Below, in pieces: positions 1 through 30,994 of a stretch of 32,513 bases of DNA. The notes below the pieces were generated by a model that worked only from the letters and a program-made list of their open reading frames with translations, was not told where the DNA came from and made no database searches. The stretch is from the NCBI GenBank assembly GCA_902802535.1, contig CADCML010000048.1:1-32513 (forward strand), given 5' to 3'. The translations under genes and the position numbers were made by a program. Each line of letters opens with the position of its first letter. Positions within the stretch are counted from its first letter, which is position 1. The stretch is from an uncultured Bacteroidia bacterium (GTDB lineage: Bacteria; Bacteroidota; Bacteroidia; Bacteroidales; F082).

Positions 1-345
1 ACGCTCCTTGTTGAGGATGGCGCGCATGTATTTGTCGGTCGGGAGCAAGCCCTTCATCAGGATGTCGGCTTCGCCGGCGTTGATGAGGTCGCAGGCCATC
101 GCAGCCGCTTTCACATCGACGGGTTCGTTGATGATTTTGAAGTTGGCCATGTCAATGCCTTCAGCCTTGCACACTTCGGCAATCACTTTCTCGTCACCAA
201 GCAAGGTGGCTTCGATGAGACCTTCCTTGACGGCGGCATTCACTGCACAGATGGTGTGGTCGTCGTTGGCATAAGCGGCCACAAGACGTTTCTTGGGTTT
301 GCTGCGCAAAACCTCAAACATTTGTTCTAATTTTCTGATTTCCAT
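1..345 (-). CDS. ptb: Phosphate butyryltransferase / phosphate acetyltransferase family protein, 5' part only
   Basis: The first 115 codons of a gene that runs off the left edge. The reading begins MEIRKLEQMFEVLRSKPKKR, and further on carries LLGDE and DILMKGLLPTDKYMR, which I recognise as the N-terminal region of the PTA/PTB family (acyl-CoA plus phosphate to acyl phosphate plus CoA). In Bacteroidales this family often works with butyrate kinase in butyrate formation or in branched-chain acyl-CoA turnover. The start at 343-345 is the first ATG after an AT-rich leader. No clear TAnnTTTG box is seen in the 46 bases upstream. The substrate (acetyl, butyryl or branched chain) cannot be decided from this part, and the partner kinase would lie outside the window. 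Confidence 0.85.
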   Translation of the reverse strand, partial: MEIRKLEQMFEVLRSKPKKRLVAAYANDDHTICAVNAAVKEGLIEATLLGDEKVIAEVCKAEGIDMANFKIINEPVDVKAAAMACDLINAGEADILMKGLLPTDKYMRAILNKER

Positions 346-14111: not shown

Positions 14112-14363
14112 TCATTTATCGCTCTCCCAACTGCTCATCCCGCCATGCAACACATCCCACCGCCGCATCCGCTCATAGAAGGCTTTCATGGAATCTTCTT
14201 TTAAGCTATCCGCTTTGATTTCGGTCTGTTCTCCATTTCCTTTCTGAGAGGGCTGGGGGTGTTCCTTGTGGTCTCCGTGATGGCATCCTGACAACAACAA
14301 GATGACACTAGCTATCATTGCTGATACTGGAACGAAGATTTTTGCAATTCTTTTCATCCTCAT
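14112..14363 (-). CDS. Small lipoprotein of unknown function
   Basis: An 83-residue lipoprotein with lipobox LLSGC at about residue 27, followed by a His/Lys/Glu-rich tail (HHGDHKEH) and a C-terminal motif SMKAFYERMRRWDVLHGGMS. The motif resembles AMEEEFYKRMREFEVLFPDN in the small gene at 14659-14820, so the two may be related. The start could equally be at 14357 (MKRIAK). The His-rich run could bind metal, but that is only a guess. No clear promoter found. Confidence 0.65.
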   Translation of the reverse strand: MRMKRIAKIFVPVSAMIASVILLLSGCHHGDHKEHPQPSQKGNGEQTEIKADSLKEDSMKAFYERMRRWDVLHGGMSSWESDK

Positions 14364-14429
14364 TTTTATTCATTTGTTCTGTTGTTTAATTATTGTAAAT
14401 ACCTTTTGTCTTAAGTAATTTCCGTATTT

Positions 14430-14461
14430 TTTGACGGTCCCGTGGAGATTTGCTATCTTTG
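14430..14461 (+). promoter_or_regulatory. Strong promoter of a candidate small RNA
   Basis: TTTG (14430-14433), a 20-base spacer, then TATCTTTG (14454-14461): a full match to both Bacteroidota elements. The expected start of transcription, a few bases later, falls at the first base of a 10-bp stem at 14466. No protein-coding frame begins nearby. Confidence 0.75.
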
Positions 14462-14465
14462 CCAC

Positions 14466-14590
14466 GCAAAACAGGCTTGATACACCAAGGGCATTAGACC
14501 TCGGTTCTTAAGTCTTCTTGTTTTGCTCTGGGTGCTTCAAGAGTTACGCAATCTTCCACAAAAGCAATCGCTCTTTTAGCACCTTTTTTA
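14466..14590 (+). ncRNA. Candidate structured small RNA, about 125 nt
   Basis: Directly after the promoter, GCAAAACAGG (14466-14475) pairs with CTTGTTTTGC (14517-14526) to close a domain holding two smaller hairpins: CTTG/CAAG (14476-14489 area) and an imperfect one around GACCTCGGTTC. A second domain, GGTGCT (14531-14536) plus AAGAG (14539-14543) pairing with CTCTT (14571-14575) plus AGCACC (14578-14583), runs into TTTTTT, a terminator. I do not recognise it as 6S, SRP, RNase P, tmRNA or a known riboswitch. It may act in trans, or on the genes read antisense around it. Confidence 0.55.
14531..14589 (+). terminator. Intrinsic terminator of the candidate small RNA
   Basis: Stem of 6 bp (GGTGCT/AGCACC), a 2x2 internal loop and 5 bp more (AAGAG/CTCTT), followed at once by six T. 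A second hairpin follows at 14597-14612 (GCCTCC, CTTT, GGAGGC) with a T-rich stretch after it, which could serve as a back-up. Confidence 0.55.
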
Positions 14591-14658
14591 TGTCTTGCCT
14601 CCCTTTGGAGGCGATGTCAAATGATTTTGTTTTTCTCTCTCATAATAGTAGTAGTTTT

Positions 14659-14820
14659 TTAAGCACAAAAGTCATTAAAGAATCGCTTATTCAACGGCAC
14701 ATTATCCGGAAATAACACCTCAAACTCTCGCATCCTCTTATAGAATTCCTCCTCCATCGCCGATGTGTCGATAGGTGCCGTCATGTGTAATTCCTTCTCC
14801 TCATAGGGGTCACATTTCAT
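14659..14820 (-). CDS. Possible small acidic protein, 53 residues
   Basis: An ATG at 14818-14820 opens MKCDPYEEKELHMTAPIDTS, then AMEEEFYKRMREFEVLFPDN, ending RFFNDFCA. It has no signal peptide. The central FYKRMREFEVL motif matches FYERMRRWDVL of the lipoprotein at 14112-14363, which supports a real coding frame. It follows the 45-codon frame at 14834-14971 by 13 bases, in the same orientation as the protease cassette upstream. Function unknown. Confidence 0.45.
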   Translation of the reverse strand: MKCDPYEEKELHMTAPIDTSAMEEEFYKRMREFEVLFPDNVPLNKRFFNDFCA

Positions 14821-19076: not shown

Positions 19077-20440
19077 TTAAAACCACACCTTATAAGAAAA
19101 CGACGGAATAATCGGGAAGAAACTCCGCTGCCATAGCGTTTGCGGCTCTTCTGGATATTGGTTCCAATACAGCGGGTCGCCTTTCGGGTCGCCGTAGTAG
19201 TAATAGTACGGATTCTGCCTGCAATACACGTTATAAATCGAGAACGTCCATTCCGCTTTGCGGCCCTTCTCGGCTTTGGTTCTGAACTTGGCGGCCAAGT
19301 CGAGGCGATGGTAGTCTTTCATCCTGTCGCTGTTGCGCTCACCGTAGATGTTGGCTTGCTCAAAATACACGTCGCCCTCGGGAGTGATGACAGGTGTGTC
19401 CTGTACTCCAATGACGGGAGTGAAGGGCAGTCCGGTCTGGTAAGTCCACAAGGCACTCAGCGACCAACGCTCCGTAAGCTGATAGTTCACGTTGATATTG
19501 ATGGAATGCGGACGGTCGTACTCGAACACATATTCCTTACCGTTATTGATGTGGTCGAATTGCCTTGTAGTGTGCGAGTAGGTGTAACCCACATAGCCAT
19601 CCAAGCGGTTGAAGTTGAAGCGGGTCATCATCTCAATGCCATACGACTTGCCGTTGCCGCCCGCTTCCACTTTGTTGCGCCAGTCAGAGTCGCCAAGGAG
19701 GGTGCTGTAGCCCTCGCGGTAGGTGGCCAAGTCTTTTAGCAGCTTGTAGTAGGCATCGATTTCAACGCTGATATGGTCTTGCCAAAAACCGCGCTGCCAA
19801 CCTACTGAAGCCTGGTCGGAGGTGGCGGGCTTGATACGAGCATCGGCAGGAATCCAAACCTCGTTGTTCATAATGGACCCTGGTGTCATCATCAGGTGTG
19901 CGTTCTGCGTCACGCGCATGGCAGTCAGGTTGACGGTACTTCCTCCTATGCCAAAACTGAGATTCAGCCTTGGCTCCCAAGCGAAGTGATGGTAGCCGCT
20001 GTTCAGGAAACTATTCAGCCTCAGGCCAACAGAACCGTTGAACCAGTTGCCAAATTTCAATTTGTTGTCCAAATATAGAGAATTGTCGAACACGCTCGAA
20101 ATGTCGGGCAGACTAGCATCAGAGAAGCTGCTGATGAAGTGGTTGGGGCGATAGTTGAGATACGAGCTTTGCAGGCCGTATTCCAAGGTGTAGGCATTGC
20201 CGACAAAGAGCTTCCAGTCGGAGCGGAGCGAAACGTCGCTGACACGCGATGAGGTCTTGACAAAGAAATCTGTCGTATCGACGGCGTTTTGAAGGTAAGC
20301 CTTCATGTTGTTCTTCAAGCGGTATTGCGTGAAAGACAGTGTATTGGCCATGAAAAGCCGTGAGCTGACTGCGCTGTTCCATTGGCCCGAAACGAGCAGG
20401 TTGCCCCAAATGTTGCCGATGCTGCTGCGCTCGATGTCAC
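19077..20440 (-). pseudogene. TonB-dependent receptor, C-terminal barrel part (separated by a frameshift)
   Basis: About 450 residues of outer-membrane barrel: alternating strands such as YRLKNNMKAYLQNAVDTTDF, YTLEYGLQSSYLNYRP and YGIEMMTRFNFNRLDGYVGY, and a terminal strand ending FSYKVWF with the C-terminal Phe typical of barrel insertion. It continues the receptor begun at 21382 but in another frame. The frames meet in the short GC-rich stretch near 20440-20446; adding one base there would restore a continuous reading of about 770 residues, a normal length for this family. Confidence 0.8.
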
Positions 20441-21382
20441 CGCGCCTTCGTAAAGGTTGAAGGAGAAGCTGTTTTTGGCATCGGGTGCCCAAGTGTATTT
20501 GGCATTGATGTCGTGGAAGCCGTAGGCCATATTATAATCCTGTCCGCCTTGTCCTTTACTGATTTGGCTCGCAATGTAGAGTAAGGCTTCCGTCAAGGTC
20601 TTACGGCCTGTGACGATAAAGCTGGAGTTTTTCAGTCCGCCAGGACCTTCTACGGCGAAAGCCAAGTCTGTGAGACCTGCGCTGAGCGAGCCTTTCAATT
20701 TGGTTGGGTCGCCTTTCTTTGAGGTGAGGTCGACAATAGAAGACAGCTTGCCACCATAGCGGGCAGGGAAGCCGCCCTTATAGATATCCATCGTGTTAAT
20801 CATCTCAGAGTTGAACACCGACATGAAACCGCCAAGATGGTTGACATAGATGAGTGGCACATTGTCGAGCAAATAAAGATTTTCGCCTGGGTTGCCGCCT
20901 CGCACAATCATCAGGCTGGAGGCTTCTGTGGCCGCTTCGATGCCCGGCAGTTGTTGTGCCGCCTTGATAATGTCGGGACGACTGCCCAAGGTGGGGATTT
21001 GGTCAATGCTTTTGGCATTGAGGGTCAATGTGTTGAAACTGTTTTTTCGCTCAATGCGAGTGGCACTGATTTCCACAGATTGCAAAGTCTCGGTCAAGGG
21101 CTTCAAACGGATTTGCAAAGGCTGGTCGGCATTGTCCACCTTAAGGCAGGTCTCTTCATAGCCGATGCATGAAACACAAAGCGTAGCTGGCAATTCCACC
21201 GCAAGGTTAAAATACCCTTTCTGGTCGGTGGCCACCCCTTTTGAGTGGTCTTGAAGAAAGACATTGGCACCGATGATGCGCTCACCATCATTGGCATCGC
21301 TGACGAAGCCGGAGATATGTGTTTGCTGGGCTTGGACAAAGAGAGAAGCCAAGAGGCCAATCATCAAAAGCATTCTTTTCAT
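20315..21382 (-). CDS. TonB-dependent receptor, N-terminal part (frame broken after the plug)
   Basis: Signal peptide (MKRMLLMIGLLASLFVQAQ), a CarboxypepD_reg-like domain (about 22-105: ISGFVSDANDGERIIGANVF ... GYEETCLKV), and a plug domain (about 110-215) with MIVRGGNPGENLYLLDNVPL. The barrel starts near 220. Real homology ends at FNLYEG (near 20446); the last 40 or so residues are out-of-frame reading. It lies 11 bases after the DUF4249 gene, the usual partner pairing. Substrate not evident. Whether the break is real decides if the receptor works. Confidence 0.85.
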   Translation of the reverse strand: MKRMLLMIGLLASLFVQAQQTHISGFVSDANDGERIIGANVFLQDHSKGVATDQKGYFNLAVELPATLCVSCIGYEETCLKVDNADQPLQIRLKPLTETLQSVEISATRIERKNSFNTLTLNAKSIDQIPTLGSRPDIIKAAQQLPGIEAATEASSLMIVRGGNPGENLYLLDNVPLIYVNHLGGFMSVFNSEMINTMDIYKGGFPARYGGKLSSIVDLTSKKGDPTKLKGSLSAGLTDLAFAVEGPGGLKNSSFIVTGRKTLTEALLYIASQISKGQGGQDYNMAYGFHDINAKYTWAPDAKNSFSFNLYEGAVTSSAAASATFGATCSFRANGTAQSAHGFSWPIHCLSRNTA

Positions 21383-29287: not shown

Positions 29288-30994
29288 CTACTCAATTAAG
29301 TCGGAAATCGGGTCTTTTCCGAGGGTTTTTCCGAGGTTGGAGCGGTATTTTCCCACCGTGTTTTCACTCAGTCCGAGCAAGTCGGCCTCCTCCTTGATGC
29401 GGAAATGGAAGAAATTCAAAAGGAGGATATTTCGTTCCGTCTCGCTTAATTCGGGGTACTCTTCCTTTAATTTTTCCCCAACCTGTGGATAGGTGTCGTC
29501 CACGGCTTCAAGGATGCGTTGCAACCTATCCTTGCCATTAGACTGGTAGATGTCCGTGACACGCTGCTGCAATATCTCCCTTGTGTGCTGTGCGGCCTGT
29601 TCCACCTTGGTTTGCAGTTCGCGTTCCGCCTCATCGCGCCGTTGCGATGCCTCGCTTAACCGCTGGGAGACCTCGCTCAACCGCCGCTGCGCCTCGGCCT
29701 CTCGTGCCGCCATGCGTATTTTGTTTCTGCGCCGCATCAGAATGACAACGACAGCCGCCAACACCACAACAAAAGGCAGCACCACGACAAGGGTTGTTCT
29801 CACAGCCTTTTTTCGTTCACGAAGCGAAGCGATTTCTTGTTTTTCCTGCAAATAGGTTTGGAATAGGTTGTTGAGTTTTGAAACCCGCGCCTGGTTTTCG
29901 GCATTCACAAATGCATCTTCTAATAGGAATTGGGCATAAGCATTGTATTTTATGGTGTCGCCCTCTTTTATGGCAATCTCATGCAATACTCGTGCTGCTA
30001 ATGCTGCTCTGCTTGGGTCTTTCTCAAACACCGGTTCCAAATAGGCTTTTGCCGTGTCATCTTGGCCAGAATAATGATAGATGATTCCTAAGAACAGGTA
30101 TCGGGCTAATCTTTCTGTTTCGTCAATGGCTTGTGCGGCCATGCTTCTCACACTGTCCAAGGCGATTATGGAATCTTTTTTGTATTCAAATAATGCTTGT
30201 GATGTTATTATATCTCTGTAAACCATATCATTTCTATCTGGCAGATATTCCAATGCCAAATCATAATAATAGGATGCACTGTCCGTCACATTTAGTTTAT
30301 CATATTGTTTTCCTATTCTGTATAGAATTTTGGAACTGCCGTATGGAGAAGTTGGCGCAATTTCATTATAAACCAAAGCCTGCTTGCCGCAATAGATAGC
30401 TGGCTCTTGCATGAATTGTGCAGAAAAAATCTCTACAAGGCGGTTATAAGTCAAAGCCATAAACCGTGCCTTATGTCCCACCAATTCATTCTCGCCAAAA
30501 TGGCTTTCCATGATCCGCAAGGTGTTGAGGTATTCGGTGCAGGCATTCACCAAATCCCCTTGTTCGTAATACCCCGCACCATTAATGTAATGCGCCCGTG
30601 CATCCAAAAACGCAACGGTTGAAGAGACGGTGTGCACACCGTCTCTACCGCACAACGAATCGAAATACGCCACGGCCTGCAACGCGTAATCGTTCTTGAA
30701 CAGCAATTCCGAGGTTAGCAATTGGGCGTAATGGGTGTTAAACGTTGTAGAGACGCATTGAATGCGTCTCATTGTGTCCATTGTATCAATTGAAGACGCA
30801 ATCATTGCGTCTCTACAGGACAGGTATTCCAACAACATGACCAAAGCACTATCGGGCTGCTGCCACATGAGGCTGTCGATAGCGGACAATTCGGGGTTCG
30901 ACCCCTCAACAGGCTCAGGGACCTGCGGTTTTGATGTGCAGGCGACCATAAAGGCCAGACCGATCAACAATCCTATGAAACCGGTTCTCTGCAT
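29288..30994 (-). CDS. Membrane-anchored TPR/HTH regulator with in-frame palindromic insertions
   Basis: A 568-residue protein. Order: lipoprotein-like signal (GLAFMVAC, Cys19); TPR-like helices (about 40-380); one membrane helix (TTLVVVLPFVVVLAAVVVIL, about 400-420); a long coiled coil (AEAQRRLSEVSQRLSEASQR onward); and a C-terminal LuxR-like HTH (YPELSETERNILLLNFFHFR ... LLGLSENTVGKYRSNLGKTL). Periplasmic TPRs would sense a signal and the cytoplasmic HTH bind DNA. The N-terminal region carries three inserts made of dispersed repeat DNA that keep the frame (30623-30646, 30746-30817, 30895-30928). Follows the Sel1 gene by 10 bases. Confidence 0.82.
   Translation of the reverse strand: MQRTGFIGLLIGLAFMVACTSKPQVPEPVEGSNPELSAIDSLMWQQPDSALVMLLEYLSCRDAMIASSIDTMDTMRRIQCVSTTFNTHYAQLLTSELLFKNDYALQAVAYFDSLCGRDGVHTVSSTVAFLDARAHYINGAGYYEQGDLVNACTEYLNTLRIMESHFGENELVGHKARFMALTYNRLVEIFSAQFMQEPAIYCGKQALVYNEIAPTSPYGSSKILYRIGKQYDKLNVTDSASYYYDLALEYLPDRNDMVYRDIITSQALFEYKKDSIIALDSVRSMAAQAIDETERLARYLFLGIIYHYSGQDDTAKAYLEPVFEKDPSRAALAARVLHEIAIKEGDTIKYNAYAQFLLEDAFVNAENQARVSKLNNLFQTYLQEKQEIASLRERKKAVRTTLVVVLPFVVVLAAVVVILMRRRNKIRMAAREAEAQRRLSEVSQRLSEASQRRDEAERELQTKVEQAAQHTREILQQRVTDIYQSNGKDRLQRILEAVDDTYPQVGEKLKEEYPELSETERNILLLNFFHFRIKEEADLLGLSENTVGKYRSNLGKTLGKDPISDLIE
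30623..30646. repeat. 24-bp perfect palindrome inside the regulator gene
   Basis: AGAGACGG-TG-TG-CA-CA-CCGTCTCT is self-complementary over all 24 bases, eight codons long, encoding part of GRDGVHTVSS. Its AGAGACG ends match those of the 72-bp element at 30746-30817. Confidence 0.85.
30746..30817. repeat. 72-bp terminal-inverted-repeat element inside the regulator gene
   Basis: Begins TGTAGAGACGCA and ends TGCGTCTCTACA. It contains two perfect palindromes (30750-30770 and 30794-30812). Its 72 bases are 24 whole codons (RDAMIASSIDTMDTMRRIQC and neighbours), so the reading frame is preserved. Confidence 0.8.
30895..30928. repeat. Dispersed 'PEPVEG' repeat inside the regulator gene
   Basis: Translates to PQVPEPVEGSNP just after the lipidated cysteine. 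The same word in a diverged form (VPEFVEG / VPEFIEG) is found in the two terminal-inverted-repeat elements at 22364-22460 and 27696-27794, which are non-coding. From general experience this is a frequent intergenic repeat in Bacteroidota. Confidence 0.65.

Follow-up and report, generated by a model that had tools for sequence, protein, structure and literature searches.

The window (the whole 32,513-nt stretch of DNA analysed) holds on its plus strand a short element whose best-supported reading, judged by sequence comparison, is an unrecognised small RNA gene. The features at and around this element are listed below, each with its coordinates, its strand and the evidence for it.

14112..14363, minus strand: gene of 83 aa, a lipoprotein as judged by eye, running divergently from the RNA with 99 nt between its start codon and the start of the RNA
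14430..14433, plus strand: TTTG, −33-like; seen in the sequence and in relatives
14454..14461, plus strand: −7 box TATCTTTG (TAnnTTTG); same place in relatives
14464..14589, plus strand: predicted small RNA of ~126 nt; covariance models R1 and R2, fold
14466..14526, plus strand: 5′ domain, closing stem GCAAAAC../..GTTTTGC enclosing a single inner hairpin; folds, covariation
14530..14584, plus strand: 3′ hairpin, outer stem GGTGCT/AGCACC plus inner stem; pairing, inner-arm covariation
14550..14563, plus strand: 3′ hairpin loop AATCTTCCACAAAA; core identical among full copies
14584..14589, plus strand: T run, predicted intrinsic terminator; T-rich tails in relatives, by eye
14597..14612, no strand assigned: short separate hairpin GCCTCCCTTTGGAGGC, beyond the RNA; similar hairpin elsewhere
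14617..14643, minus strand: tiny open frame MREKNKII (stop); similar frames in related loci
29288..30994, minus strand: TPR/HTH-type regulator; at other loci one gene lies between its relatives and the RNA

Architecture of the predicted RNA

The 5′ end of the predicted RNA is placed from the −7 box and the 3′ end from the T run. The letters of the window bear out the promoter, closing stem and terminator that the original prediction had described. TTTG at 14430–14433 is followed, after 20 bases, by TATCTTTG at 14454–14461; GCAAAACAGG (14466–14475) and CTTGTTTTGC (14517–14526) form a closing stem of 10 pairs, one of them G-U; and a second hairpin, in which GGTGCTTCAAGAG (14531–14543) and CTCTTTTAGCACC (14571–14583) pair at 11 of 13 positions, ends in six T at 14584–14589. 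The closing stem had been thought to enclose two hairpins, but folds give a single irregular one, of the GGGC-loop-GCCC type, present in the window as GGGC/GACC. Of the interval first proposed for the gene, 14430..14612, the RNA parts stand and the tail does not: 14597–14612 is a third hairpin past the T run, and its like is also found at loci without a full RNA (G088a, G071b, G088b and G076). The initial observation is partly confirmed.

The sequence from 14464 to 14590, an interval picked after the fact, folds at −39.7 kcal/mol, compared with −23.7 ± 3.0 for 200 shuffles (z −5.3, 0/200 as good); over the wider interval 14460–14600, z is −3.2. The promoter by itself is weak evidence and near chance, the full pattern TTTG-19..21-TAnnTTTG occurring once per strand in the 32.5 kb window with 0.36 expected; a generic scan scores it as a 9/12 sigma-70 match. 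A generic terminator scan of the window reports no terminator at the element, probably because its rule permits loops of 3–8 only. The element is placed above chance by its conservation in related genomes.

A multicopy family within one genus

In 12 genomes, covariance models identify 14 full copies and, in G003, one half copy; G112 has three copies and G067 two. All carriers belong to the window's Bacteroidales genus, of which 99 genomes were searched, together with 173 genomes of the family. The stems are thus kept in related genomes, as the original prediction had anticipated for a real RNA. One further full copy, L101, lies on a contig filed as viral, so that the 15 full copies referred to below are the 14 genomic ones and L101. 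Model R1 was built from six copies and R2 from fifteen, and the copies used in building match their own model by construction; R1 independently recovered those in G092, G112 (three), G071, G093 and G067 (two).

A DNA search of 60 genomes gives strong matches (six genomes besides the window's, E ~1e-14 or better) all in the same genus, with weaker matches everywhere, and an order-level search of 393 genomes, drawn from a larger group under strict filters, finds only two convincing copies, both in the own genus; two further weak matches there look like chance. Two weak matches from the family search were likewise set aside, L125 (G166) as apparent chance and L126 (G081) as mainly terminator-like. 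A third, L127 (G006), has a similar layout and was left out of the copy count: at ~1501–1640 it contains a two-hairpin element with CACCAAGGG..AAGTCCT and TCTGTTTTGCC motifs, and that element may be distantly related to the RNA. A pattern scan of named genomes returned 12 stretches, mostly on contigs already known and all from Bacteroidales, including one Candidatus Limimorpha equi, with roe deer rumen and horse faeces among the sources; since the pattern fixes the loop, these results are not independent of it. The plasmid and phage record collections hold no match to the RNA, and a second scan of viral contigs gives no copy except L101.

At its 5′ flank, TAnnTTTG stands at the same position in 13 of the 15 full copies, being absent from G001 and G067a; an exact TTTG lies 19–21 nt 5′ of the −7 box in six of the 15, and a TTG-ending variant in two more. 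A T-rich tail is visible by eye in all 15, the T run being weaker and interrupted in five (G028, G033, G007, G092 and G071a). Upstream sequence diverges between most copies. To the right, conservation continues beyond the RNA, over the next 50 bases and, where present, the DUF3244-like gene described below, and may in part belong to a neighbouring feature. Decay is seen in G076, with the promoter region joined to the loop, and in G067a, which is without the −7 box, and the element is broken internally in G003 and L091.

Compensatory change and a conserved loop

Alignment A6 comprises the 15 full copies and leaves out the half copies G003 and L091, the remnant G076 and the hairpin-only loci G088a, G088b, G071b, G087, G025 and G027. 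Compensatory change, proposed at the outset as a check on the stems, is present and moderate, exceeding shuffles on three of five measures, all read with the reservation that sequence relatedness inflates covariation: paired cells (88.0% vs 85.8%, 0/500 as high), double-change cells (16 vs 6.4, 0/500) and covariation score (0.148 vs 0.113, 0/500). For the remaining two, pairs with a double change (7 vs 4.1) and further pair types (21 vs 19.6), the observed value is reached by 13/500 and 124/500 shuffles. Sliding the partners lowers pairing to 41–56%, a loss that a consensus-derived structure tends to show anyway.

The outer stem of the 3′ hairpin, with 95% of cells paired over the 15 copies, and the AAAAC/GTTTT stem hardly vary and therefore yield no covariation signal. 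The inner stem of the same hairpin is 60% paired in one common register, and its cognate arms pair better than swapped ones (13 distinct pairs, 0/20,000 permutations), a test that relatedness also inflates; taken singly, 4 of the 13 have no equal among swapped arms and the rest have one to five of 12. Cognate arms of the 5′ domain, too, pair better overall than swapped arms (28/20,000 permutations), with three exceptions among 13 distinct arm pairs (G033/G071a, G007/G092 and G067a) that fall below the swapped mean.

The loop core ATCTTCCACAA is identical in 15/15 full copies, one of which, L101, was found via a pattern that fixes these letters; the half copy in G003 differs at one base. The loop at 14550..14563 is a candidate seed or protein-contact site.

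The claim that the strand holds no convincing protein frame agrees with the copies, which have no frame in common. Their longest plus-strand frames are 10–49 aa, 11 of 15 beginning with TTG; a shared frame is clear only in the close relatives G033, G071a, G007 and G092, and indels among copies do not come in threes. A coding reading was rejected on the absence of a set-wide frame. Nor does the element fall into a known RNA class, as had been suspected: zero Rfam families score above the gathering threshold in the whole window, and lax scans, covering 14380–14700 and two homologues, yield no more than sub-threshold noise. A riboswitch was considered and rejected, SAM-II (14.0 bits) and SAM_alpha (13.1 bits) both lying far below their thresholds. 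The element is very probably a real small RNA.

A variable facing gene and a recurrent right neighbour

The RNA start lies 57–129 nt from an opposite, minus-strand start codon in 13 of the 14 genomic copies (at G112a, an overlapping 69-aa plus-strand frame was passed over in taking this distance). The exception, G067b, has a gap of 209 nt and carries a −7 box on the minus strand. In the other 13 loci, no minus-strand TAnnTTT[GAC] occurs between the right and left neighbours (the right spacer limit of G014 was set by hand); this covers the one promoter type scanned, and spacers this short would be expected to lack it by chance.

The facing genes to the left vary between loci and often encode exported proteins, so that among the 14 full copies the promoter–RNA–terminator cassette faces eight sequence-unrelated genes: a lipoprotein-like family at four loci, a 149-aa protein at three (with a T9SS sorting domain in the two scanned), the 83-aa gene at two (the window and, as an 88% identical relative in the same place, G112a) and five singletons, among them an RHS protein and a C13 peptidase with a T9SS tail. 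At locus L077 (633–5940, in G112), the facing gene leads toward a same-strand radical SAM gene, with a short GG-containing gene resembling a peptide precursor between the two; this is possibly a peptide natural product cluster.

On the right, 11 of the 14 full genomic copies have a neighbour, convergent with the RNA, that encodes a small secreted protein of DUF3244-like type; they include G014, where the contig ends inside the gene and the assignment was made by eye. Two of the ten complete proteins pass the Pfam cut-off, five score below it and three have no match; the 15 such neighbours compared, from ten loci with a full copy and five lacking one, are all homologous to one another. Behind this gene there is usually a TPR/HTH-type regulator. 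No DUF3244-like neighbour is present in the window or at G112a. The window's own regulator at 29288–30994, whose Pfam matches are below cut-off, finds tblastn matches in 12 of the 14 loci (that in L032 spanning only 60 aa) and none in L031 and L076. The window also shares outer genes on both sides with the G033 locus, namely a ROK kinase, a Sel1 protein and a third that we take to be a carboxypeptidase. Because it keeps a relative of the regulator together with these outer genes, its RNA copy sits in an orthologous place around a rearranged stretch.

Two smaller features of these loci were noted. An ATG-to-stop frame of 8–9 aa, ending approximately K-x-K-F/I-I, occurs at 14 of 20 loci, is longer in G001 and does not fit at five; it follows DUF3244-like genes even where the RNA is missing, and its changes are apparently synonymous. 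In the window, the minus-strand gene at 19077–21382, presumably a TonB-dependent receptor, is split into two frames, both matched at 89–90% by a single 780-aa frame in G003.

Relation to known small RNAs

Two families of Bacteroides offer the closest comparisons. The DonS family consists of cis-antisense RNAs of polysaccharide loci, 78–128 nt long (PMC7366714). The ~126 nt predicted here fall within that range, and DonS RNAs too are divergently encoded close to a gene for an often exported protein, a likeness that in our case is one of orientation only, at 57–129 nt in 13 of 14 copies. DonS, however, faces a susC homologue, whereas a Pfam scan of nine of the 14 facing genes found none that is SusC-like, its matches being to a T9SS sorting domain, peptidase C13 or RHS where there were any. 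Unlike DonS, moreover, the present RNA keeps the same sequence at unrelated loci, and its repressive action is a proposal. FopS is a paralogous multicopy small RNA family (PMC11697453) that resembles ours in its multiple copies, canonical sigma-ABfr promoters, 3′ terminator hairpin and a copy in phage sequence. Its seed is a single-stranded 5′ end, whereas here the 5′ end lies within the predicted closing stem (seven copies folded) and it is the 3′ hairpin loop that forms the open conserved stretch.

A limited literature search on Bacteroides antisense RNAs, DUF3244, Bacteroidota RNA discovery and Limimorpha found no description of the element, which on present sequence comparisons is a new family of predicted RNAs. 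To our knowledge, the small RNA families described from Bacteroidota other than Bacteroides are few. The present family is multicopy and structured, its copies are linked to variable loci of bacteria of the animal gut, and its covariance model is ready for use.

A proposed antisense repressor and its alternatives

We favour, with a probability of about 0.5, a base-pairing antisense repressor that works like DonS or FopS and is a member of neither. From conservation, structure, promoter and terminator sequence and gene order we infer transcription, read-through, pairing and repression as follows. A free-standing RNA gene of ~126 nt would be read from its own housekeeping promoter of sigma-ABfr type, with its own 3′ hairpin and T run as terminator. 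It would be encoded opposite an apparent operon of the TPR/HTH regulator, the DUF3244-like secreted protein and the variable gene, often for an exported protein. If transcription from upstream runs on into the facing gene, the leader of that gene would carry the exact complement of the RNA just 5′ of the start codon; the RNA would pair with that leader, possibly beginning at the conserved AUCUUCCACAA loop, and pairing would lower expression of the facing gene or uncouple it from the preceding genes. Antisense action on the facing operon in particular has, in our estimate, close to an even chance; if the RNA does repress the facing gene, antisense control would extend beyond sugar-uptake loci. 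Copies in the same genome share the loop core, so cross-regulation could occur. A wider proposal, which we consider speculative and unlikely, is that the family is a shared control module for interchangeable genes, often for exported proteins, combining loop-based antisense action, cross-talk between copies and homology for cargo exchange.

Several observations sit poorly with antisense repression. The left neighbour of L101 points toward the RNA, which leaves that copy without a facing leader, and at G067b the facing gene is 209 nt away and has a −7 box of its own strand. A cis mechanism alone requires no invariant loop; five copies have the weaker T run; and the window and G112a are without the DUF3244-like gene.

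Some of these points would suit a trans-acting small RNA or a protein-binding decoy, with the loop as seed or binding site and the adjacency to exported-protein genes incidental, an explanation we judge somewhat unlikely. The loop core is invariant in 15/15 while the inner stems vary, copies persist in two contexts, on the DUF3244 side and on the recombinase side (G067b, L101), and FopS is a multicopy trans-acting family in Bacteroides (PMC11697453). Against it, the complement of the 12-nt loop sequence occurs in the window's genome at the element only, a result that also favours antisense action and by which no trans target was identified there, and off-element complements number 12 in 12 carrier genomes and 76 in 87 others, which indicates no clear excess in carriers. 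Genus-wide, the loop 12-mer is commoner than its reversed control (99 vs 27).

Very unlikely, in our view, is a function of the opposite strand, as a structured intercistronic leader of the facing mRNA beside a fortuitous plus-strand promoter. The minus strand folds too (z −3.7), and a minus-strand gene almost always follows the element, but TAnnTTTG stands on the plus strand in 13 of 15 copies as against a minus-strand box in 1 of 14 spacers, and the T-rich tail is on the plus side, with none seen by eye after the minus-strand hairpins. G-U cells outnumber A-C cells 40 to 8 on the plus strand (16 to 8 in columns not dominated by G-U), an excess biased toward that strand because the structure was predicted on it. 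At L101, no minus-strand frame of at least 60 aa follows the element.

A DNA recombination or attachment site similar to integron attC was considered because the flanking genes differ and a tyrosine recombinase adjoins two copies, G067b and L101; we regard it as highly improbable. The breaks within the element in G003 and L091 and the mosaic neighbours would suit such a site, and attC is likewise a folded conserved element amid changing genes. A related recombinase (E ≤ 1e-40) is found in nine genus genomes, but the element is at that locus in G067 only; the other eight recombinase loci contain none within up to ~1.5 kb per side. The best NCBIfam models for the recombinase are XerC/XerD, below cut-off, and it falls far below the cut-off of the integron-integrase model. 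Unlike attC, the element has its own promoter and terminator, whose conservation an attachment site would leave unexplained. Least probable of all is a functionless remnant or chance inverted repeats, to which the decayed copies G076 and G067a and the near-chance promoter might point, but box, stems and loop are kept though the upstream sequence has mostly diverged.

Surroundings of the viral-contig and broken copies

The L101 RNA sits among genes for a recombinase, an adenine methyltransferase, a thymidylate synthase, a Schlafen/AlbA protein and an AAA protein, and the L091 half copy adjoins a SIR2-STAND gene, contexts hinting at defence-type islands. In four genomes (L103–L106), a large inverted repeat, seen by eye (GCTGCCTTAAAAGCC ... 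GGCTTTTAGGCGGCAGC, or a near variant), lies downstream of an XerC-like recombinase.
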